A DNA stretch of 57,356 nt from Megasphaera sp. (GTDB lineage Bacteria > Bacillota > Negativicutes > Veillonellales > Megasphaeraceae). Positions 31,811 to 48,269 of the stretch are shown here, one piece after another; positions within the stretch are counted from its first letter, which is position 1, and every line of letters begins with the position of its first letter. A model generated the notes under the pieces. The model was not told where the DNA came from. It did no database searches and saw nothing but the letters and a program-made list of their open reading frames with translations. The translations under genes and the position numbers were made by a program. The DNA lies in the NCBI GenBank assembly GCA_022486585.1, contig JAKVKI010000012.1, positions 1 through 57,356 of the forward strand, in the 5' to 3' direction.

Positions 31811-33097
31811 TTACAGTTGATTTAATGCCTGTTCTACATCGTGCAGTAAATCTTCGGCATTTTCCAGACCAATGGAAATACGGACCAGGCCTGGTGTGAT
31901 TCCGCAAGCTTTAAGTTGTTCTTTGGTCAGCTGTTGGTGCGTCGTCGAAGCGGGATGCACAAGCAGTGATTTAGAGTCGCCGACGTTGGCGAGATCGGAG
32001 AAAATCTTAGCACTATCAATGAATTTGCGAGCGGCTGTATAGCCATCTTTCAATTCAAAGGAAAAGATAGAGCCAGTTCCCTTGGGGAAGTATTTTTTCG
32101 CCAGTTTGTAGTACGGCGAAGAGGGAAGAGACGGATAGTTGACTTTGGAGACCTTAGGATGGTTTTCCAGGAAGGCAGCGACTTTTTCAGCATTAGCGAC
32201 GTGGCGTTCAATGCGCAGGGACAACGTTTCTGTTCCTTGAATGAGAAGCCATGCATTGAAGGGGCTGATGCATGCGCCTAAGTCACGAAGTGATTTGGCA
32301 CGGATGCGGGTGACAAAACCGGCACCGGGGACATCTTTTGCAAAATTGATGCCATTATAGGAAGCATCCGGTGCTGCGATTTCTGGGAAGCGGCCAGAAC
32401 CGGCCCAGTCAAATTTACCGTTTTCAACGATAATGCCGCCTAAGGTTGTACCATGGCCGCCGATGAATTTTGTGGCCGAATGGACAACGATGTCAGCACC
32501 ATGTTCGAGAGGACGGAACAAATAGGGCGTAGCAAAGGTGTTATCTACAATGACTGGCAGACCGTTCTTGTGGGCAATGGCAGCGATGGCTTCAAAGTCG
32601 GGAATGTTGATGGCCGGGTTGCCCAGACTTTCCAAATAAATGGCTTTGGTCTTGTCATTGATCTGACGTTCAAAATCAGCAGGATCATCAGGATTGGCGA
32701 AATTAGTTTTGATGCCGAAACGTTTGAAGGTTTCTGTGAATAATTCGACAGTGCCGCCGTACAAGGTCGGTGCGGCAATGATTTCGTCGCCAATACCGGC
32801 GATATTGATGATGCAGTAAGCAATGGCAGCAGCACCAGAAGCAGTAGCCAGGCCGGCTGTGCCGCCTTCGAGTGCAGCAATGCGTTTTTCGAGGACATCC
32901 TGTGTCGGATTCGTCAGACGGCTGTAAATATAGCCAGGATCCCGCAGTGCAAAACGGTCTTCCCCTTGCTGTGTATCTTTGAATACATACGACGTAGTCT
33001 GATATATAGGAACGGCACGGGCGCCTGTTGTCGGATCCGGTACCTGACCGGCATGTTGCTGTAACGTTTCAAATTTGTAGTTTGTGTTTTCACTCAT
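31811..33097 (-). CDS. metY: O-acetylhomoserine sulfhydrylase
   Basis: A 428-residue PLP enzyme of the Cys/Met metabolism family. It forms homocysteine from O-acetylhomoserine and sulfide. Landmarks are [22 protein letters not shown] (start near residue 55), [10 protein letters not shown] (about 183-192) and the PLP lysine in [10 protein letters not shown] (about 207-216). The ATG at 33097 follows AGGAGG; a longer frame runs into the T-box and is rejected. With metA it supplies homocysteine by direct sulfhydrylation, without cystathionine. Confidence 0.95.
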
Positions 33098-33151
33098 AAT
33101 TACATTCCTCCTGATTGTAAAAAAATAATAGCTTGAAGGTTGTGTTGTAAT

Positions 33152-33415
33152 AAAAAAAGCTTCCATCCCTATAACAAGGGACGGAAGCACCGTGATACCA
33201 CCCAATTTCACTTAGACCTTGCGGTCTAAGCCTCTTCAGGTACGCAGGCATAAACGCCATCAATACCTTAGCACTGTAACGGGTGCGCCCGGACGGCTTA
33301 ACTATTCAGCCAATCTGCTCGGAGTCCATGTTCCACGAACTAGCATGTATTCTCTTTCACCGGATGAGAACTCTCTGGGACAATTCTTTTCGTGTACTCT
33401 TCTCTTCATTGCAAC
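33152..33415 (-). promoter_or_regulatory. T-box leader of metY-metA, methionine specifier (AUG)
   Basis: Reading the minus strand, the leader has the AGAGAAGAGTA kink-turn, the CAGAGAG motif, a specifier ATG in GGAACATGGACTC, the T-box AAATTGGGTGGTATCACGG, and a terminator hairpin ending in seven T at 33158-33152. It is closely similar along its length to the plus-strand T-box at 9528-9787. Read-through is expected when tRNA-Met is uncharged. Confidence 0.9.
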
Positions 33416-33435
33416 ACTATCAAGTTGTTGACGCT

Positions 33436-33464
33436 AGTTTATCATCATTTTTTCGTCTTGTCAA
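33436..33464 (-). promoter_or_regulatory. Promoter of the metY-metA operon
   Basis: On the minus strand: TTGACA (33464-33459), 17-bp spacer, TAAACT (33441-33436). Confidence 0.75.
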
Positions 33465-33648
33465 ATAGATTTATGGGAAAATATTTAAATTTTTAAGAAC
33501 CATATGAAGTAAAACGTTATATTTACAGACCGTATTAAATGTATATATAATATATAAGAACAGTGAAATGTAAAATTAGTGTAACAGATAAAAAATGATA
33601 TAAAATTATGGAAAAGGAAGTTAAATCTGCATTTTTTATAAAAAATCC

Positions 33649-33773
33649 TTGACAAAGGGAGTTCATATCTGTAGAATAAATAGGTAAGCTTTTCACTTGG
33701 ACTCCACTTAGCCCCGGAGAAAAAGAACCTAAAGCTTAGGTATGTTAGTCGTATCAGGGAGGAATTACACAGC
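33649..33773 (+). promoter_or_regulatory. Promoter and structured leader of rplM-rpsI
   Basis: Promoter TTGACA (33649-33654), 17-bp spacer, TAGAAT (33672-33677). The leader of about 90 nt can close with an 8-bp helix between TAAGCTTT (from 33685) and AAAGCTTA (about 33731-33738), as expected for an L13-type autoregulatory leader. The A+T-rich 33465-33648 stretch upstream holds nothing else recognisable. Confidence 0.6.
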
Positions 33774-34214
33774 ATGAAAACTACATTTATGGCTAACCCG
33801 TCCAACATCGAACGGAAATGGTACGTTGTTGACGCGGAAGGCCAGACATTGGGACGTCTTGCTGCCGAAGTAGCTAAAGTTCTTCGGGGAAAAAATAAAC
33901 CTACGTTTACCCCGCATGTAGATACAGGTGACTATGTTATCGTAGTCAACGCAGCAAAAGTTAGACTTACAGGCAAAAAATTAATCAAGAAAACGTATTT
34001 CCGTCATTCCGGTTATCCCGGTGGCGCTAAATTCATCCAACTCGGTCATATGCTTGAATCACGTCCGGAACGTGTAGTAGAAATGGCTGTTCGCGGCATG
34101 TTGCCAAAAACTAAACTGGGTGATCAGATGTACCGTAAACTGAATGTTTACGCTAGTGCTGAACATCCGCATCAGGCACAGCAACCTGAAGAATTAAAGT
34201 TAGATATTCGTTAA
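33774..34214 (+). CDS. rplM: Ribosomal protein L13
   Basis: A 146-residue L13 of the large subunit. Family landmarks are [16 protein letters not shown] (15-30), [20 protein letters not shown] (38-57) and the C-terminal GMLPKTKLG segment. Ribosome binding site GGGAGGA. It precedes rpsI by 21 bases, the universal rplM-rpsI pair. Confidence 0.98.
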
Positions 34215-34235
34215 TCACACCGGGAGGAACATTTC

Positions 34236-34628
34236 ATGGCAGTAGCACAATACTACGGTACTGGCCGTAGAAAAACATCCGTTGCCAGAGTTCGTCTGGT
34301 TCCGGGTCAGGGAAAAGTCACAGTTAATAAAAAAGATTTGAACGATTATTTCGGTCGTAAAACACTGGAATTAGTTATTAAACAGCCGCTCGTATTGACA
34401 GGTGTAACTGAACAGTACGACGTTATTGCTGATGTAAAGGGTGGCGGCCCGTCTGGTCAGGCTGGCGCTATTCGTCACGGCATCAGCCGTGCTCTTTTGG
34501 AAGTTGACCATGATTTCCGTCAACCTCTTAAAAAAGCAGGTCTCTTGACTCGTGACCCCCGTGAAAAAGAACGCCGCAAATACGGCTTGAAGAAAGCTCG
34601 TAAAGCATCGCAGTTCTCAAAACGTTAA
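34236..34628 (+). CDS. rpsI: Ribosomal protein S9
   Basis: A 130-residue S9 of the small subunit. It begins with [16 protein letters not shown] (6-21), has [19 protein letters not shown] (about 69-87) and ends in the basic tail [12 protein letters not shown] that reaches the P-site tRNA. Ribosome binding site GGGAGGA. A strong terminator follows. Confidence 0.98.
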
Positions 34629-34663
34629 TATTTTCTATAAATATTCCGTTAAAACCTATGCAC

Positions 34664-34695
34664 AAAAGCCACATGGATATCCATGTGGCTTTTTT
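34664..34695 (+). terminator. Terminator after rpsI
   Basis: A 30-bp perfect palindrome (34664-34693) built around GGATATCC, then T. Confidence 0.9.
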
Positions 34696-34720
34696 AGTTA
34701 TCACTAATTCATATGATGTA

Positions 34721-34749
34721 TTGACAATATGACTAAAAGGTATTAAATT
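34721..34749 (+). promoter_or_regulatory. Promoter of the first AraC gene
   Basis: TTGACA (34721-34726), 17-bp spacer, TAAATT. Confidence 0.5.
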
Positions 34750-34768
34750 ATAAGACAGAGTCAACTAT

Positions 34769-35740
34769 ATGATGATAGAGTATATGCAGGCGGTGAATAT
34801 AATGACGGACTATCAGAACTATCCTTATTTGAACATGTATAATGGCGAACAAAGCGGTATTTCTGTGGAATATTTGCATGAATCGCGCTCTGCTAATATG
34901 CATTGTCATCAATATTATGAATTGCTTATTATCAACCGGGGAAGTCTCCGGCATGTTTTCCGCGATGTAGAAACGCTGCTCATTCCAGGTGATGTCGTCA
35001 TGATCTTGCCGGGAATGCCTCATGGCTATTCGTTATACGGCGAAAGTTCATTATATAACTGCCAATTTACGATCGATCATATTGATGAGGCCGTAAAAGC
35101 CTTGTTGATTAAAAATGAAGGAACGCTGCTGGCCGAGGAAGGGATACCGGATACGTTTGCCGAACACTTTGAAAAGCGTGAAAACATGTACCGAGGTACT
35201 CTTCCTGAATATGCTGTCAATAACGGTAAGCAGAATGTATTACATCTTTCGCCGCAGGAGCATGTATTTGTAAAGGCGATGCTGCATCAGATCATGGATA
35301 GCCCTGATGAAGAAGACATTCATAGCAGATTGTGCAAACAGAAATATTTAGAAATCGTTTTGCTGGAATTGGATAAGAAATTGCATGAGCAGCATGAAAT
35401 ACTGCAATCGTCTTCCAATGCTAATCAACAAATGATGGCCGAAGTACTGGCAAAAATAGAATATGATTTGACACAGCCGTTTGATATTCAAATGACAGCC
35501 TCTCAATATTGTTTCAGCCCTAATCATTTCCGCAAAATATTCAAGGATTTTACTGGGGTGACACCGATACAATACATTAATCGATTGCGTATCATCTTGG
35601 CGTGTGAAGAAATTGAAGAGCAGCATATCGATATAAAGAAGGCGGCAGAAACCGTGGGGATCTATGATCTTAGCTATTTCAACCGGCTATTTAAAAAATA
35701 TATTGGCTGTGCACCGAATAAATTTCGTACCAGAATATGA
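34769..35740 (+). CDS. AraC-family regulator with cupin sensor
   Basis: A 323-residue regulator. A cupin-like effector domain (about 30-110) contains MHCHQYYELLIINRGSL. Two helix-turn-helix motifs sit at about 235-315, with PFDIQMTASQYCFSPNHFRKIFKD and the conserved second motif GIYDLSYFNRLFKKYIGCAPNKFR. Such proteins usually activate an adjacent sugar operon; the next genes are the GPH transporter, Gfo/Idh and TIM-barrel operon, a likely target. An alternative start at 34802 (ATG) cannot be excluded. The inducer is unknown. Confidence 0.9.
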   Translation: MMIEYMQAVNIMTDYQNYPYLNMYNGEQSGISVEYLHESRSANMHCHQYYELLIINRGSLRHVFRDVETLLIPGDVVMILPGMPHGYSLYGESSLYNCQFTIDHIDEAVKALLIKNEGTLLAEEGIPDTFAEHFEKRENMYRGTLPEYAVNNGKQNVLHLSPQEHVFVKAMLHQIMDSPDEEDIHSRLCKQKYLEIVLLELDKKLHEQHEILQSSSNANQQMMAEVLAKIEYDLTQPFDIQMTASQYCFSPNHFRKIFKDFTGVTPIQYINRLRIILACEEIEEQHIDIKKAAETVGIYDLSYFNRLFKKYIGCAPNKFRTRI

Positions 35741-35756
35741 TCTTAATATGGACAGG

Positions 35757-35787
35757 CCCTTCGCAACTTAGTTGCGAAGGGTTTTTT
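35757..35787 (+). terminator. Terminator after the first AraC gene
   Basis: An 11-bp stem (35757-35767 with 35771-35781), 3-base loop, six T. Confidence 0.9.
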
Positions 35788-36017
35788 ATATGCGTAAAAA
35801 ACGAATTGTGTTAACTTTGTAAACGGGATATAAATAAAAATCGTTGTTTTATCCAAGTATTGACATGTACTGTTCTATATTATCTGCTTCTGAAATATTA
35901 TACTTATAGCATAAAGAGTGAAGCCGGCGGCACATCAAAACATTAACTATGATCGCGATAGATGGAAATGATTGAAATATCCTCATCGCAAACAGGAAAA
36001 TAAGGAGGAAGCTGAAT
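35788..36017 (+). promoter_or_regulatory. Upstream region of the GPH transporter operon
   Basis: An A+T-rich 230-base stretch. A TTGACA is at 35860-35865 but no good -10 lies at the right distance, which fits an activator-dependent promoter. ATCGCGAT near 35953 is a small palindrome. Nothing else is recognised. Confidence 0.4.
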
Positions 36018-37427
36018 GTGAAATCTGAACAACTGACTGATATAAGGAGAACCGCACCAGCAATGGCTATTAGCGGTGATGTGAAAGTATCCTGGAAAGA
36101 GAAGTTTTCTTATGGGCTCGGTGATACAGCTTGTAATATAGTGGTTGCTCTCACTGCGAGTATTTTAACATTCTTTTATACGGATTATATTGGTATTTCT
36201 GTAGGGACAGTGGGCATCATCATTTTGGTGTCGCGGCTGTTTGACGGCGCATCTGATGTGGTCATGGGTCTGATCGTAGATCGGACGCATTCCAAATATG
36301 GCAAAGCCAGACCATGGGTGTTGTGGATGAGTGTTCCTTATGCGATTGGCTGCGTATTGCTGTTTACCGTGCCGCCTCATGCATCGGATATGGTCAAGGC
36401 CATTTACATATTCATTACATATAACTTTATACAGACAGTCTGTTATACTGCGTTGAACCTGCCATATTCATCGTTAGCAACATTGATGACCCGCAATCAA
36501 TATGAACGAGGCGTCATCAATGCCATCCGTATGGGCTTGTCACCCTTTGGTCGTATCTTGGCGACAGCGGCGACGCTACCATTAGTAAAAGTCCTCGGTG
36601 ATGATCAGGAAGCCTGGATCATGGCAGCTGTATTATATGGCATCATTGCCCTGATCCTGTTGTTGATTTGTTTCTTTAATACGAAGGAACGAGTCAAGCT
36701 GGAAAAAAATACAGATTCAAAAGTGCCTGTCCGTACTAGTTTGAAGGCGTTAATAAAAAATAAGTATTGGGCGTTGGGATTATTATTATGGGCCATGCTT
36801 TCGGTTTACATGACGTTATCAGGAACGATGCTCAGCTATTATAGTAAATGGATATTGGGAGATGCATTGCTAACCAGTCCCCTTTACATTGCTGAACAGG
36901 TCCCGGGTATTGCTATTATTTTCTTGATTCCAGCATTGCTGAAGCGATTTAGCAAGCGCAATTTAGCGTTAGGTGGTGCCATTATCAGTATTGTAGGCCA
37001 GGTGCCGCTAGTCATTGATCCGACCAGTTATACACTGGCTATGATGGCGTCTGTCTTCCGTGGTATTGGCCAGGCGCCACTGATGGGTGTCGTGTTTTCA
37101 TTCATTGCTGATTCCGTTGAGTATGGTCAGTGGAAGACACATCTGCGTTTAGAAGGGCTTATTTACAGCGCAGCGTCAGTTGGCTCGAAATTAGGCGGCG
37201 GTCTGACCAGTGCTACGTTAGGGCTTATCCTTAGTGCGGCTGGCTATGATGGCATGCTGGCGATGCAAAGTGATGCGGCTATAGGCGCAATTATCGATTT
37301 ATTTGTTTGGGGTCCTATTGTCGTATGGGGCGTTACCGCATTGATCCTGTTATTCCATAAATTGGAAAAATTCTATCCAGTCATGATGAAAGACTTGGCT
37401 GAACGGGAATCACACGGTGAATTATAA
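36018..37427 (+). CDS. GPH-family glycoside/pentoside/hexuronide:cation symporter
   Basis: A 469-residue MFS transporter of the GPH family with about twelve membrane segments. Characteristic parts are the N-terminal KEKFSYGLGDTACN (28-41), FDGASDVVMGLIVDRTHSKYGKARPW (residues 74-99) and the central IADSVEYGQWKTHLRLEG (about 363-380). The start is GTG, preceded by AAGGAGGAAG; the overlapping ATG is out of frame and closes at once. Members import glycosides, pentoses or hexuronides with Na+ or H+. It heads the operon of oxidoreductase and isomerase-like genes. Confidence 0.92.
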   Translation: MKSEQLTDIRRTAPAMAISGDVKVSWKEKFSYGLGDTACNIVVALTASILTFFYTDYIGISVGTVGIIILVSRLFDGASDVVMGLIVDRTHSKYGKARPWVLWMSVPYAIGCVLLFTVPPHASDMVKAIYIFITYNFIQTVCYTALNLPYSSLATLMTRNQYERGVINAIRMGLSPFGRILATAATLPLVKVLGDDQEAWIMAAVLYGIIALILLLICFFNTKERVKLEKNTDSKVPVRTSLKALIKNKYWALGLLLWAMLSVYMTLSGTMLSYYSKWILGDALLTSPLYIAEQVPGIAIIFLIPALLKRFSKRNLALGGAIISIVGQVPLVIDPTSYTLAMMASVFRGIGQAPLMGVVFSFIADSVEYGQWKTHLRLEGLIYSAASVGSKLGGGLTSATLGLILSAAGYDGMLAMQSDAAIGAIIDLFVWGPIVVWGVTALILLFHKLEKFYPVMMKDLAERESHGEL

Positions 37428-37483
37428 GCAGCTATATATTAGTATTTGAAATACATGTGTATTGTGACAAAGGAGAGAGAATC

Positions 37484-38644
37484 ATGATTTATGGTGAAAA
37501 GAATGTTGATGCTCCTATTCGTTGGGGCATGGTAGGTGGCGGTTTGGGAAGTCAGATTGGGTATATCCATCGCTCAGCAGCGTTACGCGATTTCAATTTT
37601 GAACTTGTAGCTGGTGCGTTTGATATCGATCCGGAACGAGGACGCAGTTTCGGAGAAAAACTTCATGTTGATCCAGATCGCTGTTATACCGATTATAAAG
37701 CTATGTTTGCAGCTGAAACTAAGCGCCCAGATGGGATTCAGGCTGTATCTATCGCTACTCCGAATTTTACCCATTATGAAATTGCCATGGCAGCGCTTGA
37801 AGCAGGTCTTCATGTGTATTGTGAAAAACCGCTATGCTTTACAACGGAACAGGCACAGAAGCTGGAACAGCTGGTCAAAAAAACAGGAAAAATCATGTTT
37901 ATTTCCTATGGCTATGCAGGGCATCAAATGATTGAACAAGCCCGGAAAATGGTAGAACACGGAGATTTAGGCAACATTCGTATTATTAATATGCAATTTG
38001 CCCACGGTGGCAATAATGTAGCAGTAGAAAAGAAAGCAGCGTCTCAGGCCTGGCGTGTTGATCCGGCAAAGGCGGGTCCCGCTTTCGTCATGGGGGATGT
38101 AGGTACGCATATGGTATACCTCGCTGAAGCGATTTGTCCTCAGTTGGGAATCAAACGGCTTATGTGTACGAAACAGTCCTTTGTAGAAGGCCGTGCCTTG
38201 GAAGATAATGCCATGACGGTCATGGAATATGACAATGGAGCTATTGGCTATCTTTGGTCTAGTGGCGTCAATGCAGGCTCCCAGTTCGGTGAACGGCTTC
38301 GTATTATAGGGGAAAAAGCATCCATTGCCTGGGATGCAGAATATCCGAATTTCTTATCGTATGAAGTACAGGGGCAGGCACCGCGCAAGTTAGGTCGTGG
38401 CAATGACTATCTGTATGCAGAAGCGAAGAAGGATGACCGGATTGGCGGAGGTCATCCGGAAGGACTTTTTGAAGCGTGGAGCAACTTATATACACGCTTT
38501 GCTATTGCTATTGACAAGACTGAACGGGGAGAAACTGTTGATTTTTGGTATCCCGATATCCATGCAGGTGTCTTAGGCGTCCAATGGGTAGAAAAATGTG
38601 TTGAATCAGCTGCGAATGATGCAGCATGGGTTGAATTTAAATAA
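37484..38644 (+). CDS. Gfo/Idh/MocA-family sugar or cyclitol oxidoreductase
   Basis: A 386-residue NAD(P)-dependent dehydrogenase. The N-terminal Rossmann fold has MVGGGLGSQIG (about 16-26); the catalytic Lys is in EKPL (about 114-117) and the general Asp/His pair in DVGTHMVYLAEAI (about 195-207). Members oxidise inositols or sugar hydroxyls. It is longer than canonical IolG (about 340), resembling the group that makes 3-keto-glycosides or inososes. It is the only inositol-dehydrogenase-like gene in the window, while the iol operon 4 kb away lacks one. Start at 37484 follows AAAGGAGAGAG. Ten bases separate it from the next TIM-barrel gene. Confidence 0.88.
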   Translation: MIYGEKNVDAPIRWGMVGGGLGSQIGYIHRSAALRDFNFELVAGAFDIDPERGRSFGEKLHVDPDRCYTDYKAMFAAETKRPDGIQAVSIATPNFTHYEIAMAALEAGLHVYCEKPLCFTTEQAQKLEQLVKKTGKIMFISYGYAGHQMIEQARKMVEHGDLGNIRIINMQFAHGGNNVAVEKKAASQAWRVDPAKAGPAFVMGDVGTHMVYLAEAICPQLGIKRLMCTKQSFVEGRALEDNAMTVMEYDNGAIGYLWSSGVNAGSQFGERLRIIGEKASIAWDAEYPNFLSYEVQGQAPRKLGRGNDYLYAEAKKDDRIGGGHPEGLFEAWSNLYTRFAIAIDKTERGETVDFWYPDIHAGVLGVQWVEKCVESAANDAAWVEFK

Positions 38645-38654
38645 GGAGACTATA

Positions 38655-39653
38655 ATGAGTATAAAACCTGAAAATTTTGATATGCCAGTTGCTTCGTTTA
38701 ATGAACATCCTATGAAATTAGGGCTCTTTACGGACGGATTACCGGATATGTCCTTTGAACAAGTACTGGATGAAGCAGTTCATATGGGAATTAAAGTATT
38801 GGAATTTGGTACAGGCGGGTATTCTTGTGCACCTCACTTAAATATGGAAAAATTGCTGAAAAGTGCCGATGCTCGTAAAACCTTTTTGCAGGCTATTGAA
38901 AGCCGCGGTCTTGAGATTTGTGCGCTGAATTGTTCTGCTAACGCTATCGGACCAGGGGAACGATGGGCAAGCCATGCACCGGATGTAATGAATACGTTTC
39001 GACTGGCAGAACTTCTCGGTGTAAAACATATTGTAGCCCAGTCTGGTTTGCCTGCAGGCAGTCCAACAGATACGGCATTAAACTGGGTCCTCCATACATA
39101 TCCGCCTGAAATGCAGGATGTCTTGAAATATCAATGGGACGTGACTATTCAGTTTTGGAGCAAAGCAGCTGCATTAGCGGCCTCTTGCGGGGTGGAAACG
39201 ATTGCGTTAGAAGAGCATCCGATGAACATGGTGTTCAATTATGGAACACTGATGCATTTAAGAGCTGCTGTTGGGCCCATTATTGGTATGAACCTTGATC
39301 CCAGCCATATGTTCTTCATGGGCGGCGATCCGATCTTGATGGCTCGTAAACTGTGTGAAGCAAAAGCCGTGTATCATGTTCATGGAAAAGATACGCGTTT
39401 AAATCCGCATATTAAAGGAACGGAATATTTTGAATTGGGACCGTACAATGGTGCTGCTGCGAATAGAGTATGGAACTATGTTGCTGTTGGGTATGGACAT
39501 GATCAGTTATGGTGGAAAGAATTCTTTGCGACCTTGGCAGCCGGCGATTACCACGGACCAGTATGCATCGAAGTGGAAGATCCGCTGATGCCGAATAATT
39601 TGATTGCTATCCAAAAATCTGCCAGATTCTTGCAAGAAACAATGTTGAGTTAA
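38655..39653 (+). CDS. Xylose-isomerase-like TIM-barrel enzyme (sugar phosphate isomerase/epimerase family)
   Basis: A 332-residue PF01261-type TIM barrel. The expected metal ligands appear in order: Glu in ALEEHP (about residue 185), Asp in NLDPSHMF (about 217), His in HVHGKD (about 247) and Glu in CIEVEDP (about 306). The family includes isomerases, epimerases, hydratases and keto-sugar lyases, so the reaction is open. Tight linkage to the Gfo/Idh gene suggests it acts on that enzyme's keto product. The start ATG at 38655 follows AAGGAG; the upstream frame is rejected. Confidence 0.88.
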   Translation: MSIKPENFDMPVASFNEHPMKLGLFTDGLPDMSFEQVLDEAVHMGIKVLEFGTGGYSCAPHLNMEKLLKSADARKTFLQAIESRGLEICALNCSANAIGPGERWASHAPDVMNTFRLAELLGVKHIVAQSGLPAGSPTDTALNWVLHTYPPEMQDVLKYQWDVTIQFWSKAAALAASCGVETIALEEHPMNMVFNYGTLMHLRAAVGPIIGMNLDPSHMFFMGGDPILMARKLCEAKAVYHVHGKDTRLNPHIKGTEYFELGPYNGAAANRVWNYVAVGYGHDQLWWKEFFATLAAGDYHGPVCIEVEDPLMPNNLIAIQKSARFLQETMLS

Positions 39654-39677
39654 GAAACGGAAGGAGCATGTATATAT

Positions 39678-40616
39678 ATGAAAATCACATTTGATACCAG
39701 TGCATTCTGGGATACAGGAATGACCTATGAAGAAATTTATCAAACCGTCGCAGCAGCAGGATATCAGTATATTTCCCCGTATAATGCTGATTTTCCGGGC
39801 TTTTGGAAACGGCCTAAAGCGACGAATGCAGAAGTAGAATGGCATAAAAAAGCCATTCAAAAGGCAGGGCTCAAGATCGCTTCCCTGACTACAGGATTCC
39901 GTATTGCCGATCCGGATGAATTCGTGCGCCAGTATGCGTTAGACTGCTGGAAACGAATGATTGAAATTGCAGAGATCCTGGGGGTCAGCGTATTCAATAC
40001 GGAATTCAATGGTGATCGCAGTTGTCCTGAATTATGTGAAGCTAAGGTCATGCGTTCCCTTGACGTGTTACTGCCCCTGCTGGAAAGCAAAGGCATGCGT
40101 ATGGATGTCCAGGCCCATCCGAATGACTTTTATGAACATAGCAACGATGCCTACGATATTGTACGATATTATGACAGCCCGGCTTTAGGATATTTGTACT
40201 CCATTCCTCATACTTTCCATTATGATGGCGGCAAAGGCGATATTGCCAGCATGCTGACGTATTGTCAGCGTCATTTGACACATATCATTGTTGCTGATAC
40301 GTGGAACTATACGAAGCTGTTCCGTTATAATATTAATCCAGCTGAATTATATGCTGATGGGTCTGTGCGTTGTCATGCCCATATTGGTAAAATCGGTGAT
40401 GGCGAAGTTGATTTTGCTGCAGCCTTTAAAACACTGCGGGCCTTGGGTTTTGGAGAACGGGAGGATACTATTGCAACCTTCAATCCCTTAGGATTCCCTG
40501 AACGGGCCATAGAAGACGGGCGTTTTACGAAAAAAGTACTTGAAGAACAGCTGCTGGGACATAGCGATGCTATTGAACCGCCCATGCCTTTAGGACAGAT
40601 CATCAGGCCCCGCTAA
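39678..40616 (+). CDS. Second TIM-barrel isomerase-like protein with altered metal site
   Basis: A 312-residue PF01261-type protein, 24 bases after the previous one but not its close copy. It is most like the truncated gene at 56864 (shared NTEFNGD/NTEFSGD, then ELC, then VQAHP/VQSHP). The usual first metal ligand Glu is Gln here (DVQAHPNDF, about 146-154), and the Asp-x-x-His strand reads YSIPHTFHY. The C-terminal strand reads TFNPLG rather than an EP motif. The chemistry may therefore differ from classical members. Ribosome binding site GGAAGGAG. Confidence 0.85.
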   Translation: MKITFDTSAFWDTGMTYEEIYQTVAAAGYQYISPYNADFPGFWKRPKATNAEVEWHKKAIQKAGLKIASLTTGFRIADPDEFVRQYALDCWKRMIEIAEILGVSVFNTEFNGDRSCPELCEAKVMRSLDVLLPLLESKGMRMDVQAHPNDFYEHSNDAYDIVRYYDSPALGYLYSIPHTFHYDGGKGDIASMLTYCQRHLTHIIVADTWNYTKLFRYNINPAELYADGSVRCHAHIGKIGDGEVDFAAAFKTLRALGFGEREDTIATFNPLGFPERAIEDGRFTKKVLEEQLLGHSDAIEPPMPLGQIIRPR

Positions 40617-40668
40617 TTTCATCTATAGAATTACGGAAATATACCGCTTAGACATAGGTATTGCCAGG

Positions 40669-40711
40669 CTTCTTTGGTCATGTTAGAATTGGTGGAGAAA
40701 GACCAAGGAGG
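40669..40711 (+). promoter_or_regulatory. Hairpin sequestering the Shine-Dalgarno of the gamma-CA-like gene
   Basis: CTTCTTTGGTC (40669-40679) pairs with GACCAAGGAGG (40701-40711), 11 contiguous pairs including two G-U, loop of 21 nt. The full AAGGAGG ribosome binding site is buried. Confidence 0.5.
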
Positions 40712-40718
40712 AATTATT

Positions 40719-41240
40719 ATGGCAAAAATTGTATCATTCGGCGGCTACACGCCACAAATAGATCCGTCAGCATACGTTGCAGAATCAGCTGTCATTACTG
40801 GTAATGTTATTATTGAAGAAGGGGCTAGTATCTGGCCTCATGCTGTTATTCGTGGTGATGCGGCCAGCATCCGCATTGGCAAGTATACGAATGTGCAGGA
40901 CAACGCGACGCTCCATACGGATTTGGATCAGCCGCTGACGATCGGTGATTATGTCGTTATCGGTCACAACGCGGTCATCCATTGTACATCTGTTGGGACG
41001 GCAGCACTTATCGGTATGGGATGTGTACTTCTCGATGATGCGGAAATTGGTGATGAATCCATTATCGGTGCGGCTACCTTGATTACGCAGCGTAAGAAAA
41101 TCCCTGCCCGTTCGATGGTATATGGCACGCCGTTTCGCATTGTTCGTCCCGTTACGGATGAAGAAGTACTGCATACGCGGCAAGAAGCGCAGAGTTATTA
41201 TGCTGCGTCCCGAAAATATAAGGAATTGCAGAAACCGTAA
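40719..41240 (+). CDS. Gamma-carbonic-anhydrase-like hexapeptide-repeat protein
   Basis: A 173-residue left-handed beta-helix protein. Hexapeptide repeats run from about 20 to 130. The three zinc-ligand histidines of the gamma-CA family are seen in LHTD, and in IGHNAVIHC (spaced five apart). Family members such as YrdA often have unproven carbonic anhydrase activity. The start at 40719 follows AAGGAGG, which is within a predicted hairpin. It ends the transporter-oxidoreductase operon and a terminator follows, so its link to sugar metabolism is positional only. Confidence 0.9.
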   Translation: MAKIVSFGGYTPQIDPSAYVAESAVITGNVIIEEGASIWPHAVIRGDAASIRIGKYTNVQDNATLHTDLDQPLTIGDYVVIGHNAVIHCTSVGTAALIGMGCVLLDDAEIGDESIIGAATLITQRKKIPARSMVYGTPFRIVRPVTDEEVLHTRQEAQSYYAASRKYKELQKP

Positions 41241-41258
41241 GGAACACAAGATAACAGG

Positions 41259-41300
41259 AGCCCTGTGTCACGCTTGAAATGCATGGCACAGGGCTTTTTT
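41259..41300 (+). terminator. Terminator before the iol operon
   Basis: A 12-bp stem (41259-41270 with 41284-41295) and six T. It separates the GPH operon from the iol operon. Confidence 0.9.
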
Positions 41301-41383
41301 GCGTCTTACAAAGCGTGAAAATCATACGGTTTCAACAAGATGGAAATATTTTGGCGAAAAGAGATTTATTTTGATTATATCCA

Positions 41384-41412
41384 TTGACAAATAACCAATT
41401 AAGCATTAAGAT
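41384..41412 (+). promoter_or_regulatory. Promoter of the iol operon
   Basis: TTGACA (41384-41389), 17-bp spacer, TAAGAT (41407-41412). The putative IolR repeats overlap the spacer, the -10 and the start region. The rest of 41301-41383 shows nothing. Confidence 0.75.
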
Positions 41413-41447
41413 ATAACCATAAAGTTACCAAAAACATAATCAACATA
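41392..41447 (+). promoter_or_regulatory. Phased 11-bp direct repeats, candidate IolR operator
   Basis: TAACCAATTAA (41392), TAACCATAAAG (41414), TTACCAAAAAC (41425) and TAATCAACATA (41437). They match the B. subtilis IolR 11-mer WRAYCAADARD at 10, 10, 9 and 9 of 11 positions, and the spacing is 22, 11 and 12 bp, in near 11-bp register. An IolR-like gene is at 49747. Confidence 0.65.
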
Positions 41448-41475
41448 TGAAAATTCACAAAGGAGAGTGCACATT

Positions 41476-42630
41476 ATGGGTCACATCTTTATGGTTCCAA
41501 AAACAATTATTTCTGGTACAAATGTTATCACAGAATTAGGTCAGCATATTGAAGGTAAAGGCACAAAAGCGCTTATCGTAACCGATCAGGCTATGGTTAC
41601 ATTCGGCAATGCAGCAAAAGTAGAAGATGCCTTGAAGAAAGCTGGTATCCCCTATGTAATTTACGATGGCTCCAATACAGAACCGACCGATAAAATCGTT
41701 GATGCAGGTCTCAAAATGTATAAAGAAGAAAAATGTGATTTTATCATTGCTCTTGGCGGTGGCAGCCCCATGGATACAGCAAAGGCAATCGCTTTCTTAT
41801 CCGTTGGCGGTGGCAAGCTCCGCGATTACATGCATAAATCCATTGACTTCCCTGTTCCGTATTTAGTAGCTATTCCGACAACAGCCGGTACAGGCTCTGA
41901 AGTTACGAAGAACACGATTATTGCTGATACAGAAACAAACGTCAAAATGTTATTAGGCGGCCCGTCCATTATTCCGTCGTTGGCTGTTGTTGATCCGTCC
42001 TTCACTATGACAGCGCCTCCTAAAGTGACGGCTGCTACTGGTATCGATGCATTGACACATGCCATCGAAGCGTATACATCCCGTAAAGCACAGCCGCTGA
42101 CAGATATTTTTGCACTGTCGGCTATTAAAAAGATCCACAAAAATCTTCCTGTTTGCTATAAAGATGGCAAAAACGAAGAAACTCGTTTGGAAATGTCCCT
42201 GGCAGCATTAGAAGCAGGCATTGCCTTTACGAATGCGTCTGTTACTATCGTTCACGGCATGAGCCGTCCAATCGGTGCGCTGTTCCACATTGCACATGGC
42301 GCTTCCAATGCGATGTTGCTTCCAGCATGTCTCCGCTTCGCTATCAAAGAAAATACAGCTCGCTTTGCTGAAATCGGCCGTATCATGGGCGTAGCTGATG
42401 CCAACACACCGGATGCTGAAGCAGCAGCTGCTATGGCCGCTGAAGTGGACCGGTTCTGCAAAGAAGTTGGTATCCAGACCATCGAAGAAGCAGGTGTTAA
42501 GAGAGACGACTGGTATGCATCGCTCAGCAAGATGGCTGATGATGCCTTAGAAAGCGGCAGCCCGCAGAATACCATGCGTATCCCTACGAAAGAACAAATC
42601 ATTGACATCTATAAGGAACTCTATAAATAA
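41476..42630 (+). CDS. Iron-containing alcohol dehydrogenase
   Basis: A 384-residue group III alcohol dehydrogenase. NAD-binding GGGSPMDTAKAIA lies at about 95-107, and metal-site histidines in GHGMSRPIGALFHIAHGASNAM-type motif spread over about 257-282. Similar enzymes include 1,3-propanediol and lactaldehyde dehydrogenases. It is the first gene after the iol promoter and so probably belongs to inositol breakdown. A plausible task is reducing malonate semialdehyde to 3-hydroxypropionate, because no iolA is present; this is inference. The start at 41476 follows AAAGGAGAG. Confidence 0.9.
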   Translation: MGHIFMVPKTIISGTNVITELGQHIEGKGTKALIVTDQAMVTFGNAAKVEDALKKAGIPYVIYDGSNTEPTDKIVDAGLKMYKEEKCDFIIALGGGSPMDTAKAIAFLSVGGGKLRDYMHKSIDFPVPYLVAIPTTAGTGSEVTKNTIIADTETNVKMLLGGPSIIPSLAVVDPSFTMTAPPKVTAATGIDALTHAIEAYTSRKAQPLTDIFALSAIKKIHKNLPVCYKDGKNEETRLEMSLAALEAGIAFTNASVTIVHGMSRPIGALFHIAHGASNAMLLPACLRFAIKENTARFAEIGRIMGVADANTPDAEAAAAMAAEVDRFCKEVGIQTIEEAGVKRDDWYASLSKMADDALESGSPQNTMRIPTKEQIIDIYKELYK

Positions 42631-42666
42631 GAGTTTCAGACACGGTTAAATGGAGGAGGAGCACAT

Positions 42667-43512
42667 ATGCCACTCGTAAAAATGTCGGAAATCCTCAATA
42701 GTGTAAAGGATACGTCGTATGCTATAGGGGCGTTCAACGTATCCAACATGGAAATGGCCATGGGCGCTATTAAGGCAGCCGAAGAAATGCATGCACCGCT
42801 TATCATGCAGATTGCTGAAGGTCGCTTGCGTTATTCGCCGCTCGATCTGGTCGGGCCGGTCATGGTAGCGGCAGCAAAACGCTGCAAAATGCCTGCAGCT
42901 GTACAGCTGGATCATGGTAAAACAAAAGAAATGATCACCTTGGCATTGGAAATAGGGTTCACATCGGTCATGTTCGATGGTTCATCGTATCCGCTTGATG
43001 AAAACATAGCCTTGACCAAACAAGTACGAGCACTGGCAGATACATATGGTGCTTCTGTAGAAGGGGAAATCGGCAGCATCGGTGGTGCTGAAGGCGATGG
43101 CGCTGACAGTGATATTGCCATTACTCGCGTAGAAGATGCCATCCGTTTTGCTAATGAAACAGGCGTAGACGCGCTGGCTATTGCTATCGGTACGGCTCAT
43201 GGGAACTATAAGAAAAAACCGCAGCTGCGTATTGACCGTCTGAAAGAAGTAGCAGCCGTTGTTAAAACACCGTTGGTTCTTCACGGCGGTACAGGCCTTA
43301 CAGAAGATGATTTCCGTAACTGTTTCCACAATGGTATCAAGAAAATCAATATTGCTACGGCATCTTATGACAGCGTAGCCAGTGAAATAAAAGCGACGTA
43401 TCAGGCAAAACCGGAATCCAACTATTTTGATTTCAGCGATGCAGCTGTTACGGGGACATATAAGAACATCATTAAACATATGCATATTTTTGAAATGCAG
43501 GATAAAGCATAG
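42667..43512 (+). CDS. iolJ: Class II aldolase, 2-deoxy-5-keto-D-gluconate-6-phosphate aldolase
   Basis: A 281-residue class II, zinc-dependent aldolase of the fructose-bisphosphate aldolase family. Zinc ligands are seen in LDHGKTKE (His about 83), GTAHGNYK (about 178-185) and LHGGTGL (about 205-211). Position in the iol operon identifies the likely substrate: 2-deoxy-5-keto-gluconate-6-phosphate is split to dihydroxyacetone phosphate and malonate semialdehyde. A GatY/FBA role cannot be excluded by motif alone. Ribosome binding site GGAGGAG; 36 bases after the Fe-ADH stop. Confidence 0.9.
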   Translation: MPLVKMSEILNSVKDTSYAIGAFNVSNMEMAMGAIKAAEEMHAPLIMQIAEGRLRYSPLDLVGPVMVAAAKRCKMPAAVQLDHGKTKEMITLALEIGFTSVMFDGSSYPLDENIALTKQVRALADTYGASVEGEIGSIGGAEGDGADSDIAITRVEDAIRFANETGVDALAIAIGTAHGNYKKKPQLRIDRLKEVAAVVKTPLVLHGGTGLTEDDFRNCFHNGIKKINIATASYDSVASEIKATYQAKPESNYFDFSDAAVTGTYKNIIKHMHIFEMQDKA

Positions 43513-43525
43513 AGGAGGATTTAAC

Positions 43526-44557
43526 ATGGCACTCATAGATTTTGACCAGACTAAAAAACGCGATGTTGTTTTAATCGGCCGCGTGACATTAGACTTCAAT
43601 CCGAACGAACTCAACCGTACACTGGATAAGGTAAAGACGTTTTCCATGTATCTCGGCGGTTCCGCAGGCAACATGGCAGTCGGTATTAACCACCTCGGCA
43701 AAAAAGTCGGTTTCATCGGCTGTGTCTCTGATGACCAATTCGGTGATTTCGTCATTAACTACTTCAACGAACGCGGTATTGATACGACACAAATGGTACG
43801 GTCCAAACATGGTGAACGCATTGGTCTTACCTTTACAGAAATCAAGAGCCCGACGGAAAGCAGCATCCTCATGTATCGTGACTGCATTGCCGATTTGCTC
43901 ATTGCTCCAGAAGACGTTTCAGAAGACTACATTGCTGACAGCAAGATCCTGATCGTATCCGGTACAGCGCTAGCTGCCAGCCCGTCACGGGAAGCTTGCT
44001 TCATGGCTGTCCGTTATGCTAAAAAACATGGTGTAAAAGTTATTTTTGATATCGACTACCGCCCGTACACCTGGAAATCGGCAGAAGAAACATCCATTTA
44101 CTACTCTCTCATGGCTAAGATGAGCGATATCATCATCGGTTCCCGTGAAGAAGTAGATTTAACGGAAAACATCCCTGAAGACAGTGGCATTCCTGATCAT
44201 GAATTAGCTGAAAAATACATGGCTGAAGGCAATCAAATTGTCATTATCAAACATGGCAAGAAAGGTTCCATTGCTTATACAGCAGATAAACATGCATATA
44301 AAGTTGAATCCTATCACATCAAGTTGCTCAAATCCTTCGGTGGCGGCGATGCGTACGGCAGTGCCTTCGTATATGGCCTGTTATCCGGCTGGGAAGTTCC
44401 TAAAGCCTTGCAGTATGGTACGGCTCATGCAGCCATGGTCGTTGCCAGCCACAGTTGTTCCGACGCTATGCAGACCGTTGATCAAATCAATGCCTTCATG
44501 GAAGAACATAAAGATGAAAAGGTTATTACGGAATTAGACTGGAGGGAAAAATTATGA
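43526..44557 (+). CDS. iolC: 5-dehydro-2-deoxygluconokinase
   Basis: A 343-residue PfkB-family kinase that phosphorylates 2-deoxy-5-keto-gluconate. It shows VLIGRVTLDFNP (about 14-25), the GGSAGNMAVGINHLGKKVGFIG substrate region (about 43-64) and the catalytic FGGGDAYGSAF (about 271-281), where the Asp is the base. The chosen start at 43526 follows AGAGGAGG. The stop overlaps iolB by four bases (ATGA). Confidence 0.94.
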   Translation: MALIDFDQTKKRDVVLIGRVTLDFNPNELNRTLDKVKTFSMYLGGSAGNMAVGINHLGKKVGFIGCVSDDQFGDFVINYFNERGIDTTQMVRSKHGERIGLTFTEIKSPTESSILMYRDCIADLLIAPEDVSEDYIADSKILIVSGTALAASPSREACFMAVRYAKKHGVKVIFDIDYRPYTWKSAEETSIYYSLMAKMSDIIIGSREEVDLTENIPEDSGIPDHELAEKYMAEGNQIVIIKHGKKGSIAYTADKHAYKVESYHIKLLKSFGGGDAYGSAFVYGLLSGWEVPKALQYGTAHAAMVVASHSCSDAMQTVDQINAFMEEHKDEKVITELDWREKL

Positions 44558-45348
44558 GATTAGGCCATTTAGGCGAAGTAAAACACGGCTATAATGCCAT
44601 GACGACCCGTGAAAGCGATATGCTCATGGATACGGGCTATCAGGAAATGGATACGAACGAAATCGTTGAATTTCAAGATCCATTGCAGGAAACTGCGTTT
44701 GTCATCGTTACCGGTGAAGTAGAAATCACTTGGGATGGCAAGACAGAAGTGATGCATCGTGATTCTCCTTTTGATGAAAATCCCTATTGCCTCCACGTTC
44801 CTCATGGTAAGACTGTCATCATTAAAGCGTTGAAACCGTCTGAAGTGCTTATTCAAAAAACTGTAAACGAACGCGATTTTGAACCGGTATTCTATCGTCC
44901 CCAAGATGTACAGAGCGATATTTTCGGTGAAGGGCTTTGGAGTTCTACAGCAGAACGGACAGTCCGTACGATCTTTGATTATGAAAATGCACCGTATTCC
45001 AATATGGTAAATGGCGAAGTCATTACCAGCCCGGGCCGTTGGTCTGGCTATATTCCTCATACACATCCGCAGCCGGAAGTGTACACCTATAAATTTGATA
45101 AACCCCAGGGATTCGGAGCTTGCTTCATTGGTGATAATGTATTCATGATTAAGCAGAATACATGGTCTGAACTTTCCAGTGGCTATATGCATCCTCAAGT
45201 AGCGGCACCAGGCTATGCTATGTGGTATAGCTGGATGATTCGTCATCTTCCTGATAATCCGTGGAGAAAAACACGGACAGATGTGCCGGAACATGTATGG
45301 CTCCTTGATAAAGATGCAAAAATTTGGGAACCGCATAGAAATAAATAA
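44554..45348 (+). CDS. iolB: 5-deoxy-glucuronate isomerase
   Basis: A 264-residue cupin enzyme that converts 5-deoxy-glucuronate to 2-deoxy-5-keto-gluconate. Double cupin architecture is expected; the second barrel has the metal-binding HTHPQPEVYTYKF (about 169-181) and the HPQVAAPGYAMWYSWMIRH segment (212-230). Translation is coupled to iolC through an ATGA overlap. Family length is normal. Confidence 0.95.
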   Translation: MRLGHLGEVKHGYNAMTTRESDMLMDTGYQEMDTNEIVEFQDPLQETAFVIVTGEVEITWDGKTEVMHRDSPFDENPYCLHVPHGKTVIIKALKPSEVLIQKTVNERDFEPVFYRPQDVQSDIFGEGLWSSTAERTVRTIFDYENAPYSNMVNGEVITSPGRWSGYIPHTHPQPEVYTYKFDKPQGFGACFIGDNVFMIKQNTWSELSSGYMHPQVAAPGYAMWYSWMIRHLPDNPWRKTRTDVPEHVWLLDKDAKIWEPHRNK

Positions 45349-45402: not shown

Positions 45403-47349
45403 ATGGCAAAAACAATCAGACTTACGGTAGCTCAGGCTCTCGTAAAATTCCTCAATAACCAATATGTTGAATTTGATGGAAAAGAAAACCCCATGTTTGA
45501 AGGTATTTTCGGTATCTTTGGACACGGCAACGTAGTCGGTCTCGGCCAGGCACTGGAAGAAGATCCGGGACATTTGACTATTCATATGGGTCGTAACGAA
45601 CAAGGCATGGCCCATGCTGCTATCGGTTTTGCAAAACAGAAACGGCGCAAACAGATGTATGCCTGCACCTCTTCTGTCGGTCCTGGCGCTGCGAACATGG
45701 TAACAGCAGCTGCTACGGCTACGGCAAACTGTATTCCTATCTTGTTCCTGCCGGGTGATACATATGCCGATCGTCAGCCTGATCCGGTATTACAGCAAAT
45801 GGAACAACCAAGCAATCTTAGCATTACGACAAATGATGCTTTTAAAGCAGTCTGCAAATATTGGGACCGCGTTACTCGTCCGGAAATCCTCATGCAGTCC
45901 GCTATCAATGCGATGCGGGTGTTGACAGATCCTGCTGAAACAGGCGCTGTATGCTTAGCTCTTCCTCAAGATGTAGAAGGTGAAGCATACGATTATCCGG
46001 AATATTTCTTCCAGAAACGAGTTCATCATATCGATCGTCCCCGTCCGTCTGAACGAGCTATCAAAGAAGCAGTAGAACTCATTAAGACAAAGAAAAAACC
46101 AATGCTCATTTTTGGCGGCGGCGTCAAATATTCTGAAGCAGAAGAAGCATTCCGCGCTTTTGCTGAAAAATTTGATATTCCTTTTGGCGAAACACAAGCA
46201 GGGAAAGGGACGATCAGCTGGAAACATCCACTCAACCTCGGCGGTATTGGCGAAACAGGCGGTCTCGGCGCGAACCTCATCGGTGCTGATGCTGACCTCG
46301 TTATCGGCGTAGGTACGCGGTATACCGATTTCACGACCTCTTCAAAATGGCTTTTCCAGAATCCGGATGTCGATTTCATCAATATCAATGTGTCCAGATT
46401 CCATGCGTATAAGATGGATGGCCTCCAAGTCGTTGGCGATGCACAATCCTGCCTTGAAGATTTGAATGCAGCCTTGAGCCAGACCGACTGGAAACCAGCT
46501 TACACAACAGAAGTCAAAGAAGCAAAAGCTAAGAATGATGCTGAAATCGACCGTATCTATCATTTGGAATATACAGGCAAAGATTTCGTTCCTGAAGTCG
46601 ACGATGCATTGGACTTCAAGAAAGTCAGCGAAGAATTCATCAAATTGACAGGTTCGTCTTTGCCACAGACCCGTGCTCTTGGTGTCGTTAACGAAAGCAT
46701 TGATCCCAACGCTATCGTTGTCGGCGCTTCCGGTTCTCTTCCTGGTGACTTACAGCGTGCATACCGTCCGGAAACAGTCGGCAGTTATCATGTTGAATAT
46801 GGCTTTTCTTGCATGGGCTATGAAGTCAATGCGGCTCTCGGCGTAAAATATGCTGAACCAGATCGGGAAGTGTATGCTCTCGTAGGTGATGGCGCATACA
46901 TGATGCTCCACTCTGAATTACCGCAGTCCATTCAGGAACATGCCAAAATCAATGTCATCGTATTTGATAACATGACCAATGGCTGTATCAATAATTTGGA
47001 AATCGGTCACGGCCAGGGCAGCTTCGGTACAGAATTCCGCTTCCGTAATGCTAAAACAGGGAAACTCGATGGCGGCTTCATGCCAATCGACTTCGCTATG
47101 AACGCAGCTTCGTATGGCTGCAAGAGCTATACTGTACGCAGCTCGGAAGAACTGAAAGCAGCTCTTGAAGATGCTAAAAAACAGACTGTTTCTACTCTTA
47201 TTGATGTCAAAGTCATGCCGAAGACGATGGTTCATGGCTATGGTGATTGGTGGCGTGTAGGCGTTGCCCAGGTATCTAAGAGCGAAAAAGTCCATGATGT
47301 ATATGAAAACCTCATGGTACCGCATTTGGATGCAGCAAGAAAATATTAA
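45403..47349 (+). CDS. iolD: 3D-(3,5/4)-trihydroxycyclohexane-1,2-dione hydrolase
   Basis: A 648-residue thiamine-diphosphate enzyme that opens the cyclohexanedione ring to 5-deoxy-glucuronate. The N-terminal Pyr-type domain includes the [12 protein letters not shown] segment and the catalytic Glu in [16 protein letters not shown] (about 63-78). The C-terminal ThDP/Mg2+ motif runs from GDGAYMM to [10 protein letters not shown] (about 496-528). The chosen start at 45403 follows GGAGG. It sits 54 bases after iolB and 32 before iolE. Confidence 0.96.
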
Positions 47350-47381: not shown

Positions 47382-48269
47382 ATGGCAAACATTAAACTCG
47401 GCATTGCTCCGATTGCTTGGACGAACGACGATATGCCCGATCTTGGCAAGGAAAATACATTTGAACAATGTGTCAGCGAAATGGCACTGGCTGGTTTTAC
47501 AGGCTGCGAAATCGGCGGTAAATACCCCAAAGATCCTGTTGAATTGAAGAAAGCTCTCGACCTCCGTGGCATGTCCATTGCCAGTGCATGGTTCAGCTCT
47601 TTCTTGCTCACACAGCCGTATGAACAAGTAGAAAAAGATTTCATTGCTCACTGTGAATTCTTAAAAGCTATGGGCGCTAAATTCTGCAACGTTGCTGAAC
47701 AGGGCAACAGTGTACAGGGCAAACTCGATGTTCCTGTCTTTGCAGGCAAACCGACCAATACGGAAGAACAGTGGCATCTGCTGGCTGATGGCTTGAATAA
47801 ACTCGGTGCTGTCGCTCAGAAAATTGGTTTGACCATGACCTATCATCATCATATGGGCACTGGCGTCCAGACGACGGAAGAAATCGACCGCCTCATGGAT
47901 ATGACTGATCCGAACCTCGTATTTCTTTTGTATGATACCGGCCATTTGGTATGCTCCGGTGAAGATTACCTGGCTATCCTGAAAAAATATTTGCCTCGTA
48001 TCCGCCACATCCATTTGAAAGATGTACGCATGGATATCCGCAACAAAGTAAAATCGGATAACATGAGCTTCCTCGATGGCGTTCGTGCAGGCATGTTTAC
48101 TGTTCCTGGCGATGGCGACATTGATTTTGAACCGATCTTTGATATTGTCAATGCAAGCAACTATGATGGCTGGTACATCGTAGAAGCTGAACAGGATCCG
48201 GCTAAAGCCAATCCGTTGGAATACGCTATCAAAGCCCGTAAATATATTAAAGAAAAAGCTCATATCTAA
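47382..48269 (+). CDS. iolE: myo-inosose-2 dehydratase
   Basis: A 295-residue TIM-barrel enzyme dehydrating 2-keto-myo-inositol to the cyclohexanedione. It begins IKLGIAPIAWTNDDMPDLG (4-22), highly typical of IolE. Metal-site segments are TYHHHMGTG (about 150-158), LYDTGHL (about 185-191), HIHLKDVR (about 209-216) and IVEAEQD (about 266-272). It is the last gene of the operon; a terminator follows. Its substrate must come from an inositol dehydrogenase, for which the Gfo/Idh gene at 37484 is the only candidate here. Confidence 0.96.
   Translation: MANIKLGIAPIAWTNDDMPDLGKENTFEQCVSEMALAGFTGCEIGGKYPKDPVELKKALDLRGMSIASAWFSSFLLTQPYEQVEKDFIAHCEFLKAMGAKFCNVAEQGNSVQGKLDVPVFAGKPTNTEEQWHLLADGLNKLGAVAQKIGLTMTYHHHMGTGVQTTEEIDRLMDMTDPNLVFLLYDTGHLVCSGEDYLAILKKYLPRIRHIHLKDVRMDIRNKVKSDNMSFLDGVRAGMFTVPGDGDIDFEPIFDIVNASNYDGWYIVEAEQDPAKANPLEYAIKARKYIKEKAHI

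Follow-up and report, generated by a model that had tools for sequence, protein, structure and literature searches.

What does a compact set of transport, oxidoreductase and TIM-barrel genes do beside an operon for inositol degradation? The question is raised by a 57,356-nucleotide stretch of a Megasphaera genome (contig JAKVKI010000012.1 of assembly GCA_022486585.1), which as a whole we call the window. Five of its genes, all on the forward strand and spanning 34769-40616, encode in order an AraC-family regulator, a GPH-family symporter, a Gfo/Idh/MocA oxidoreductase (Gfo below), and two PF01261-type barrels (TIM1 and TIM2). Next to this block lies an iol operon, whose IolE-IolD-IolB-IolC-IolJ enzymes we call the trunk. 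The parts of the block are of known types, and because the best Pfam E-value for each of the five proteins is 1.8e-18 or less, the gene content is not a matter of chance. We think that the block probably serves as an entry module, through which a non-myo inositol or a close cyclitol derivative is fed into the adjacent trunk.

The preliminary description of this DNA, which was made from the sequence alone, had listed a GPH symporter, a Gfo/Idh/MocA protein, and two PF01261 barrels behind an AraC gene. Pfam and NCBIfam find all of these in that order, with the last four closely packed downstream of the AraC gene and a terminator-like hairpin.

The block is a well-bounded, variable module. A sister species (G008) has an empty site (locus L135): the 6 kb from AraC through GPH, Gfo, and TIM1 to TIM2 are absent beside a kept iol operon. 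On one side, the rplM-rpsI stretch (33508-34630 in the window) is 88% identical as DNA. About 165 bases after it comes the gene for a carbonic-anhydrase-like protein, which is 75% identical at the protein level. The iol operon follows (41357-51559 in the window); it is 82% identical as DNA, and its iron-containing alcohol dehydrogenase, IolJ, IolC, IolB, IolD, and IolE proteins match at 93-97%. The assembly of the sister species is given as 78% complete, and it is unbroken at this locus. Since the block is missing between kept flanks, we take the unit to run from AraC to TIM2. It had been drawn earlier as 36018-41240, which needs two corrections: the last gene (40716-41240) is outside the unit, because the sister species keeps it beside the iol operon without the block, and the AraC gene is inside it. 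Among 15 genomes of the genus, this one included, IolD (scored as present if the curated model TIGR04377 is above its cut-off) is found in two, namely this genome and that of the sister species, and TIM1 is found at E <= 1e-40 in this genome only. Among 60 genomes (this one and 59 relatives), Gfo is found at E <= 1e-80 in this one only. There are no tRNA genes in 33000-42000, and a search for direct repeats found no common word of 10 or more bases between the junctions (34600-34770 and 40600-40730).

The nearest copies that we found are in Butyricicoccus-type Clostridia. We scanned named genomes with a TIM1 alignment (A1), and the best 80 of 371 matches gave 79 distinct TIM1 loci. Eight of these, from Butyricicoccus and related Clostridia (L056-L062 and L093), have the same Gfo-TIM1-TIM2 order as the window, with identities of 75-80% for Gfo, 80-85% for TIM1, and 70-81% for TIM2. 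One of the eight (L093) also has GPH, at 77% identity and in the same order, while GPH has no match in the other seven; an AraC gene 42-46% like the window's lies upstream of Gfo in L057, L058, and L062. In a tree of Gfo, the window and the eight Clostridia loci group with 100/100 support (9 of 49 rows). Horizontal gain of the block is the natural reading and probably the correct one, and its direction is not proven.

TIM1 belongs to an unassigned family of TIM barrels that is tied to inositol-degrading genomes. IolD is present in 74 of the 76 genomes that we reached via TIM1 loci (47 of 49 and 27 of 27 in two sets; the genome of L074 is left out, and L093 and L128 are metagenome-assembled genomes that were already represented). 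The two genomes that lack it are those of L085 and L100. IolD is also present in all seven genomes of the closest Clostridia loci. As a background, we used a sample of 398 genomes from the phylum, of which 18 have IolD, this genome included. With this genome left out, the rate is 7 of 29 for those whose nearest TIM1-like protein is a distant one (34-41% identity) and lower, at 10 of 368, for the remainder. In one of the two exceptions, Companilactobacillus baiquanensis (L100), which has no IolD at 1e-150, the TIM1 orthologue lies near an IolE-like gene, two TIM2-like genes, and several genes of the inositol dehydrogenase type.

The neighbours of TIM1 point the same way. A window-type Gfo (47% identity or more) is present at 38 of the 79 loci, and a dehydrogenase of the inositol or chiro-inositol type (44% identity or more to a gene on contig C47 of the Megasphaera genome) at 27; one or both are present at 60 loci, and neither at 19. 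A trunk gene is found at 21 loci and a relative of TIM2 at 21. Of 179 neighbouring proteins at 28 loci, the comparison covered 125 from 20 loci: eight match the inositol/D-chiro-inositol dehydrogenase model at 1e-60 and three match IolG at that threshold. On two Rhizobium plasmids (L051 and L052), the gene order is TIM2-Gfo-TIM1-iolC-iolD; the three enzymes of the block have orthologues in different phyla. The neighbours of TIM1 fall into 78 Pfam families, and the 25 that are shown include no glycoside hydrolase. Similarly, the earlier remark that no glycosidase is near the block holds for the 18 window proteins that were scanned with Pfam. A link to inositol is strongly supported, and one to a non-myo inositol in particular, which the preliminary description had proposed, is well supported: TIM1 co-occurs with IolD, its neighbours are of the inositol type, and the empty site adjoins the iol operon.

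One of the Rhizobium loci (L051) brings in another idea, which is that the block breaks down an aminocyclitol, for example a rhizopine (scyllo-inosamine), and that its barrels resemble MocC. The sole NCBIfam row of the binding protein at that locus is the rhizopine binding-protein model, and PMC10107442 describes MocC as a protein of unknown function that is essential for rhizopine use. But the binding protein's score of 165.4 bits is far below the cut-off of 420, and the 25 Pfam families shown (of 78) for proteins near TIM1 include no aminotransferase. We consider this idea exceedingly improbable.

What might the enzymes do? Gfo matches the solved structures 7d5m, 7d5n, and 3dty over its full length, with E about 1e-160 (4.1e-161 for 7d5m and 4.3e-161 for 7d5n). 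We take 7d5m and 7d5n to be an inositol dehydrogenase homologue from Azotobacter; the name in the search of the PDB is just "Oxidoreductase," and we found no paper on these structures, as the text matches were unrelated. The matches to 3v5n (E = 1.6e-80) and DgpA (E = 7.7e-18) are weaker. Gfo has both of the Gfo/Idh/MocA domains, and its Lys115-Asp205-His209 triad is shared by all 22 sequences of the alignment, the window's included. Such a triad is described for inositol dehydrogenases in PMC9603128. Asp47, which follows the second strand, is invariant in our alignment (A4) and would fit NAD+ as the cofactor. We presume that Gfo is an NAD+-dependent inositol dehydrogenase.

A rare-sugar pathway of the levoglucosan or L-glucose type, which would lie beside the iol operon by chance, could account for the best NCBIfam row of Gfo (levoglucosan dehydrogenase, NF052479) and for the monosaccharide-type binding proteins that adjoin the block in some of the Clostridia loci. 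However, that row scores 85.2 bits against a cut-off of 650, and the co-occurrence with IolD and the inositol-type neighbours would be left unexplained. So a rare sugar strikes us as a highly improbable substrate.

The best solved relative of TIM1, by both sequence and fold, is SCO6571 of Streptomyces (2zds; about 23% identical), with E = 8.4e-27 for a TIM1 profile (A2) and E = 8.6e-22 for a Foldseek comparison with the predicted model. Further down the fold matches are IolE (3cny, 5.6e-13) and IolI (1i60, 8.2e-12). TIM1 is below the IolE model TIGR04379 (33.4 of 290 bits) and passes no isomerase model. The metal-site residues E186, D215, H243, and E308 are conserved in 42 of 42 sequences. In contrast, position 188 (about 39216-39218 in the window), on the same strand as the metal ligand E186, varies: 20 of the 42 sequences, including the window's clade, have His there, and the other 22 have Phe. 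The division agrees with the clades and may correspond to two different reactions or substrates. We presume that TIM1 is a metal-dependent inosose isomerase or epimerase, or else a hydro-lyase, and the reaction is a guess.

The profile of TIM2 is nearest to IolO (1.5e-18), followed by IolI (2.8e-13), and TIM2 is below the IolO model (33.4 of 300 bits). It is 41% identical to a Klebsiella barrel that is encoded between a Gfo gene and iolE. Fold matches are not discriminating, as tagatose 3-epimerases, UlaE, 2zds, IolI, AsbF, IolO, IolE, and YcjR all lie within 3e-12 to 5e-10. By gene context TIM2 is IolH-like, and the passages on iolH in PMC3878828 give no function for it.

If the block is an entry module, then the AraC protein would sense the compound and the GPH protein would import it with a cation. 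Gfo would oxidise one ring hydroxyl with NAD+ to give an inosose. TIM1 would then use a metal to shift the carbonyl or a stereocentre, yielding 2-keto-myo-inositol or another intermediate that the trunk can use; TIM2, as a barrel of the IolH type, would carry out a second such step or assist. The product would be taken up by the adjacent trunk. We infer that the substrate is a cyclitol. Which isomer it is, and the choice of isomerase or epimerase over dehydratase for the two barrels, are guesses.

Several results weigh against this proposal. Gfo is below the models for IolG (TIGR04380, 70.9 of 355 bits) and for inositol/D-chiro-inositol dehydrogenase (NF052679, 32.1 of 540 bits). The HMMER alignment of the TIM2 profile to IolI has other residues at the places of the four metal ligands of IolI, and because of this the chemistry of TIM2 is the least certain. 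At the eight Clostridia loci most similar to the block, no trunk gene exceeds our thresholds (L062 has a partial, 59% match to IolE at its edge). As for the co-occurrence with IolD, the background sample covers a single phylum, but Proteobacteria are also among the genomes with TIM1; related genomes are not independent; and the 79 TIM1 loci are the best of 371. Finally, the second-best solved protein for TIM1 by fold is AtHYD (8ro4; E = 5.1e-19, TM score 0.77, 18% identity), an enzyme of glycoside breakdown.

This last result bears on a kind of glycoside pathway that the preliminary description had brought up, with counterparts in an Agrobacterium operon and in the DgpABC system. In such a scheme, Gfo would oxidise or re-reduce C3 of a glycoside's sugar, the aglycone would be eliminated by TIM2, and TIM1 would hydrate the keto-glycal. 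According to PMC10628242, an Agrobacterium operon has the same parts: an oxidoreductase (GlycDH), a Gfo, and two PF01261 barrels, AtOGE and AtHYD, of which AtHYD is a 2-hydroxy-3-keto-glucal hydratase. Also, in the window's clade, the His of TIM1 is two residues after E186, which is the spacing of the eliminases' catalytic His in the same paper. On the other hand, the TIM1 profile gives E = 0.89 for AtHYD and E = 0.25 for AtOGE (8bvk), and the 60 chains shown for TIM2, out of 62 at E <= 1, do not include AtOGE. On the BT_2158-type glycoside 3-dehydrogenase model (NF058561), Gfo reaches 50.4 bits where the cut-off is 750, and its match to DgpA is far weaker than its match to 7d5m. TIM1 orthologues track IolD, and the extra barrel of a look-alike operon in Pantoea is IolI-like (E = 1.5e-15). 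So the fold of TIM1 speaks for this pathway, while Gfo and TIM2, with its IolO and IolI relatives, lend it no support, and we view it as unlikely. The CGE beta subunit (PF19906), which would be expected for the DgpBC type, has no match in this genome, but the controls were without a match as well.

The Pantoea loci are on two plasmids (L049 and L053), where a GMC oxidoreductase, a gluconate-2-dehydrogenase-like subunit, and a cytochrome c are encoded beside a barrel, a LacI regulator, Gfo, and TIM1. We considered these as glycoside operons of the Agrobacterium type and rejected this, as the extra barrel in L049 is not AtOGE-like. They are perhaps for the membrane-bound oxidation of an inositol.

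Because the fold of TIM1 resembles that of AtHYD, elimination-type chemistry can still be entertained, and it could act on an inositol ring. Gfo would ketonise an O-substituted inositol (a methyl ether of the pinitol or ononitol type, or an inositol glycoside), and TIM1 would beta-eliminate methanol or the sugar. The direct product would be trihydroxycyclohexanedione, on which IolD acts, and IolE would not be needed. This would explain why the Rhizobium operons have TIM2-Gfo-TIM1-iolC-iolD without iolE in the 17 kb shown. If true, TIM1 would be a keto-inositol ether lyase, a new class of enzyme, and the two ideas of the preliminary description, a glycoside and an inositol, would be united. Among the papers listed by a search on the catabolism of pinitol and ononitol, none has such a gene cluster in its title or in the opening of its abstract. 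We regard this variant as distinctly unlikely. Within the entry module as we prefer it, there is a further option for TIM1. Hydrating a keto-sugar and dehydrating a keto-inositol are one type of reaction run in opposite directions. TIM1 may thus be a hydro-lyase that acts on an inosose, which we keep as a serious alternative to the role of isomerase that we prefer.

The rest of the genome has more inositol genes. The preliminary description had noted that the iol operon lacks an inositol dehydrogenase of its own, which is true locally. Elsewhere, two genes on contig C30 pass the curated IolG model, and one gene on contig C47 passes the inositol/D-chiro-inositol dehydrogenase model (552.6 bits; the cut-off is 540). 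Contig C47 also carries another window-type Gfo (59% identity) and an IolE-like barrel that scores 136 bits against a cut-off of 290. The window ends within the gene for an IolH-like barrel (56864-57356), which is 96.8% identical over 493 bases to a gene fragment at the end of contig C47 (5987-6490 of L015). It seems that this gene is present in two nearly identical copies and that the assembly broke there. Six GPH genes are above the cut-off, and four of them are among inositol-type genes on contig C30. These four are within 3630-16655 of L016, with AraC genes and Gfo or IolI-like genes between them. Three of the four are each followed by a cytidylate-kinase-like protein, and the three copies are 0.87-0.94 alike (Pfam was run on one).

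The features of the block and its flanks are collected in the table. A few points are not apparent from it: the score for IolC was obtained on a version that is two codons longer at the start; the IolB call rests on Pfam because the TIGR04378 score is below its cut-off; and the iron-containing alcohol dehydrogenase is under the cut-off of every NCBIfam model listed.

Features of the block and of the adjacent operon (positions in the window; bits are NCBIfam scores and pLDDT is the predicted local distance difference test score)
Feature	Positions	Strand	Basis
AraC-family regulator; member of the variable block	34769..35740	+	Pfam HTH_AraC 1.8e-18, AraC_binding
Terminator-like hairpin in the AraC/GPH gap	35754..35784	+	Pattern scan, 14 pairs; consensus match only
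GPH-family symporter, presumed importer	36018..37427	+	TIGR00792 344 bits, cut-off 231.35
Gfo/Idh/MocA oxidoreductase, presumed NAD+-dependent inositol dehydrogenase	37484..38644	+	Pfam; 7d5m match; triad
TIM1, PF01261 barrel	38655..39653	+	Pfam 1.1e-26; model pLDDT 89.2
TIM2, PF01261 barrel, IolH-like by gene context	39678..40616	+	Pfam 3.3e-30; model pLDDT 82.7
Gamma-carbonic-anhydrase-like hexapeptide protein, flank gene	40716..41240	+	NF050158 185.5 bits, below cut-off 250
Iron-containing alcohol dehydrogenase, first gene of adjacent operon	41467..42630	+	Pfam Fe-ADH
IolJ-like class II aldolase	42667..43512	+	NF005288 399.7 bits, cut-off 396
IolC, 5-dehydro-2-deoxygluconokinase	43526..44557	+	TIGR04382 407.6 bits, cut-off 300
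IolB-like isomerase	44554..45348	+	Pfam KduI/IolB 8e-51; TIGR04378 85.7 bits, cut-off 205
IolD, trihydroxycyclohexanedione (THcHDO) hydrolase	45403..47349	+	TIGR04377 955.9 bits, cut-off 715
IolE, myo-inosose-2 dehydratase	47382..48269	+	TIGR04379 415.6 bits, cut-off 290

Beyond the trunk, a lone IIA protein of the lactose/cellobiose type of the phosphotransferase system is encoded near the inositol genes (49292-49630, reverse strand), and the same is seen on contig C47 (178-504 of L015). A PHP-domain protein (51857-52606) is followed by a 981-amino-acid calcineurin-like phosphoesterase with a Laminin_G_3 domain (52670-55612). The latter is perhaps a phosphatase for inositol phosphates, but this is only a guess.

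Many bacterial genes for inositol-linked dehydrogenases and TIM barrels have no assigned reaction, and in the open-licence literature we found no characterised orthologue of the enzymes of the block. The functions of TIM1 and of IolH-type proteins are directly testable, because the block is small, the sister species provides an empty site as a natural control, close copies exist in Butyricicoccus-type Clostridia, and TIM1 is tied to IolD. The block also makes GPH symporters candidates for the import of inositols.

How does the block compare to known systems? In Bacillus subtilis, D-chiro-inositol is oxidised to an inosose by IolG and then converted to 2-keto-myo-inositol by the PF01261 isomerase IolI. 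The route that we propose has the same logic, with oxidation to an inosose followed by a PF01261 isomerase, but Gfo fails the IolG models and neither barrel is an IolI orthologue. The Agrobacterium operon, as described in PMC10628242, resembles the block in combining a Gfo with two PF01261-type barrels, one of them a relative of TIM1 by fold; unlike in that operon, the barrels of the window have no significant sequence match to AtHYD or AtOGE and their context is one of inositol genes. Salmonella has accessory iol genes of a similar make-up: PMC10783015 lists srfJ, iolI1, iolG2, iolI2, and iolH as uncharacterised and mentions a possible role for iolG2, iolI2, and iolH in myo-inositol metabolism. 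Compared by description, these genes and the block both pair a Gfo-type dehydrogenase with isomerase-like genes beside an inositol operon. Unlike the accessory genes of Salmonella, the block in Megasphaera comes with a GPH importer and an AraC gene.

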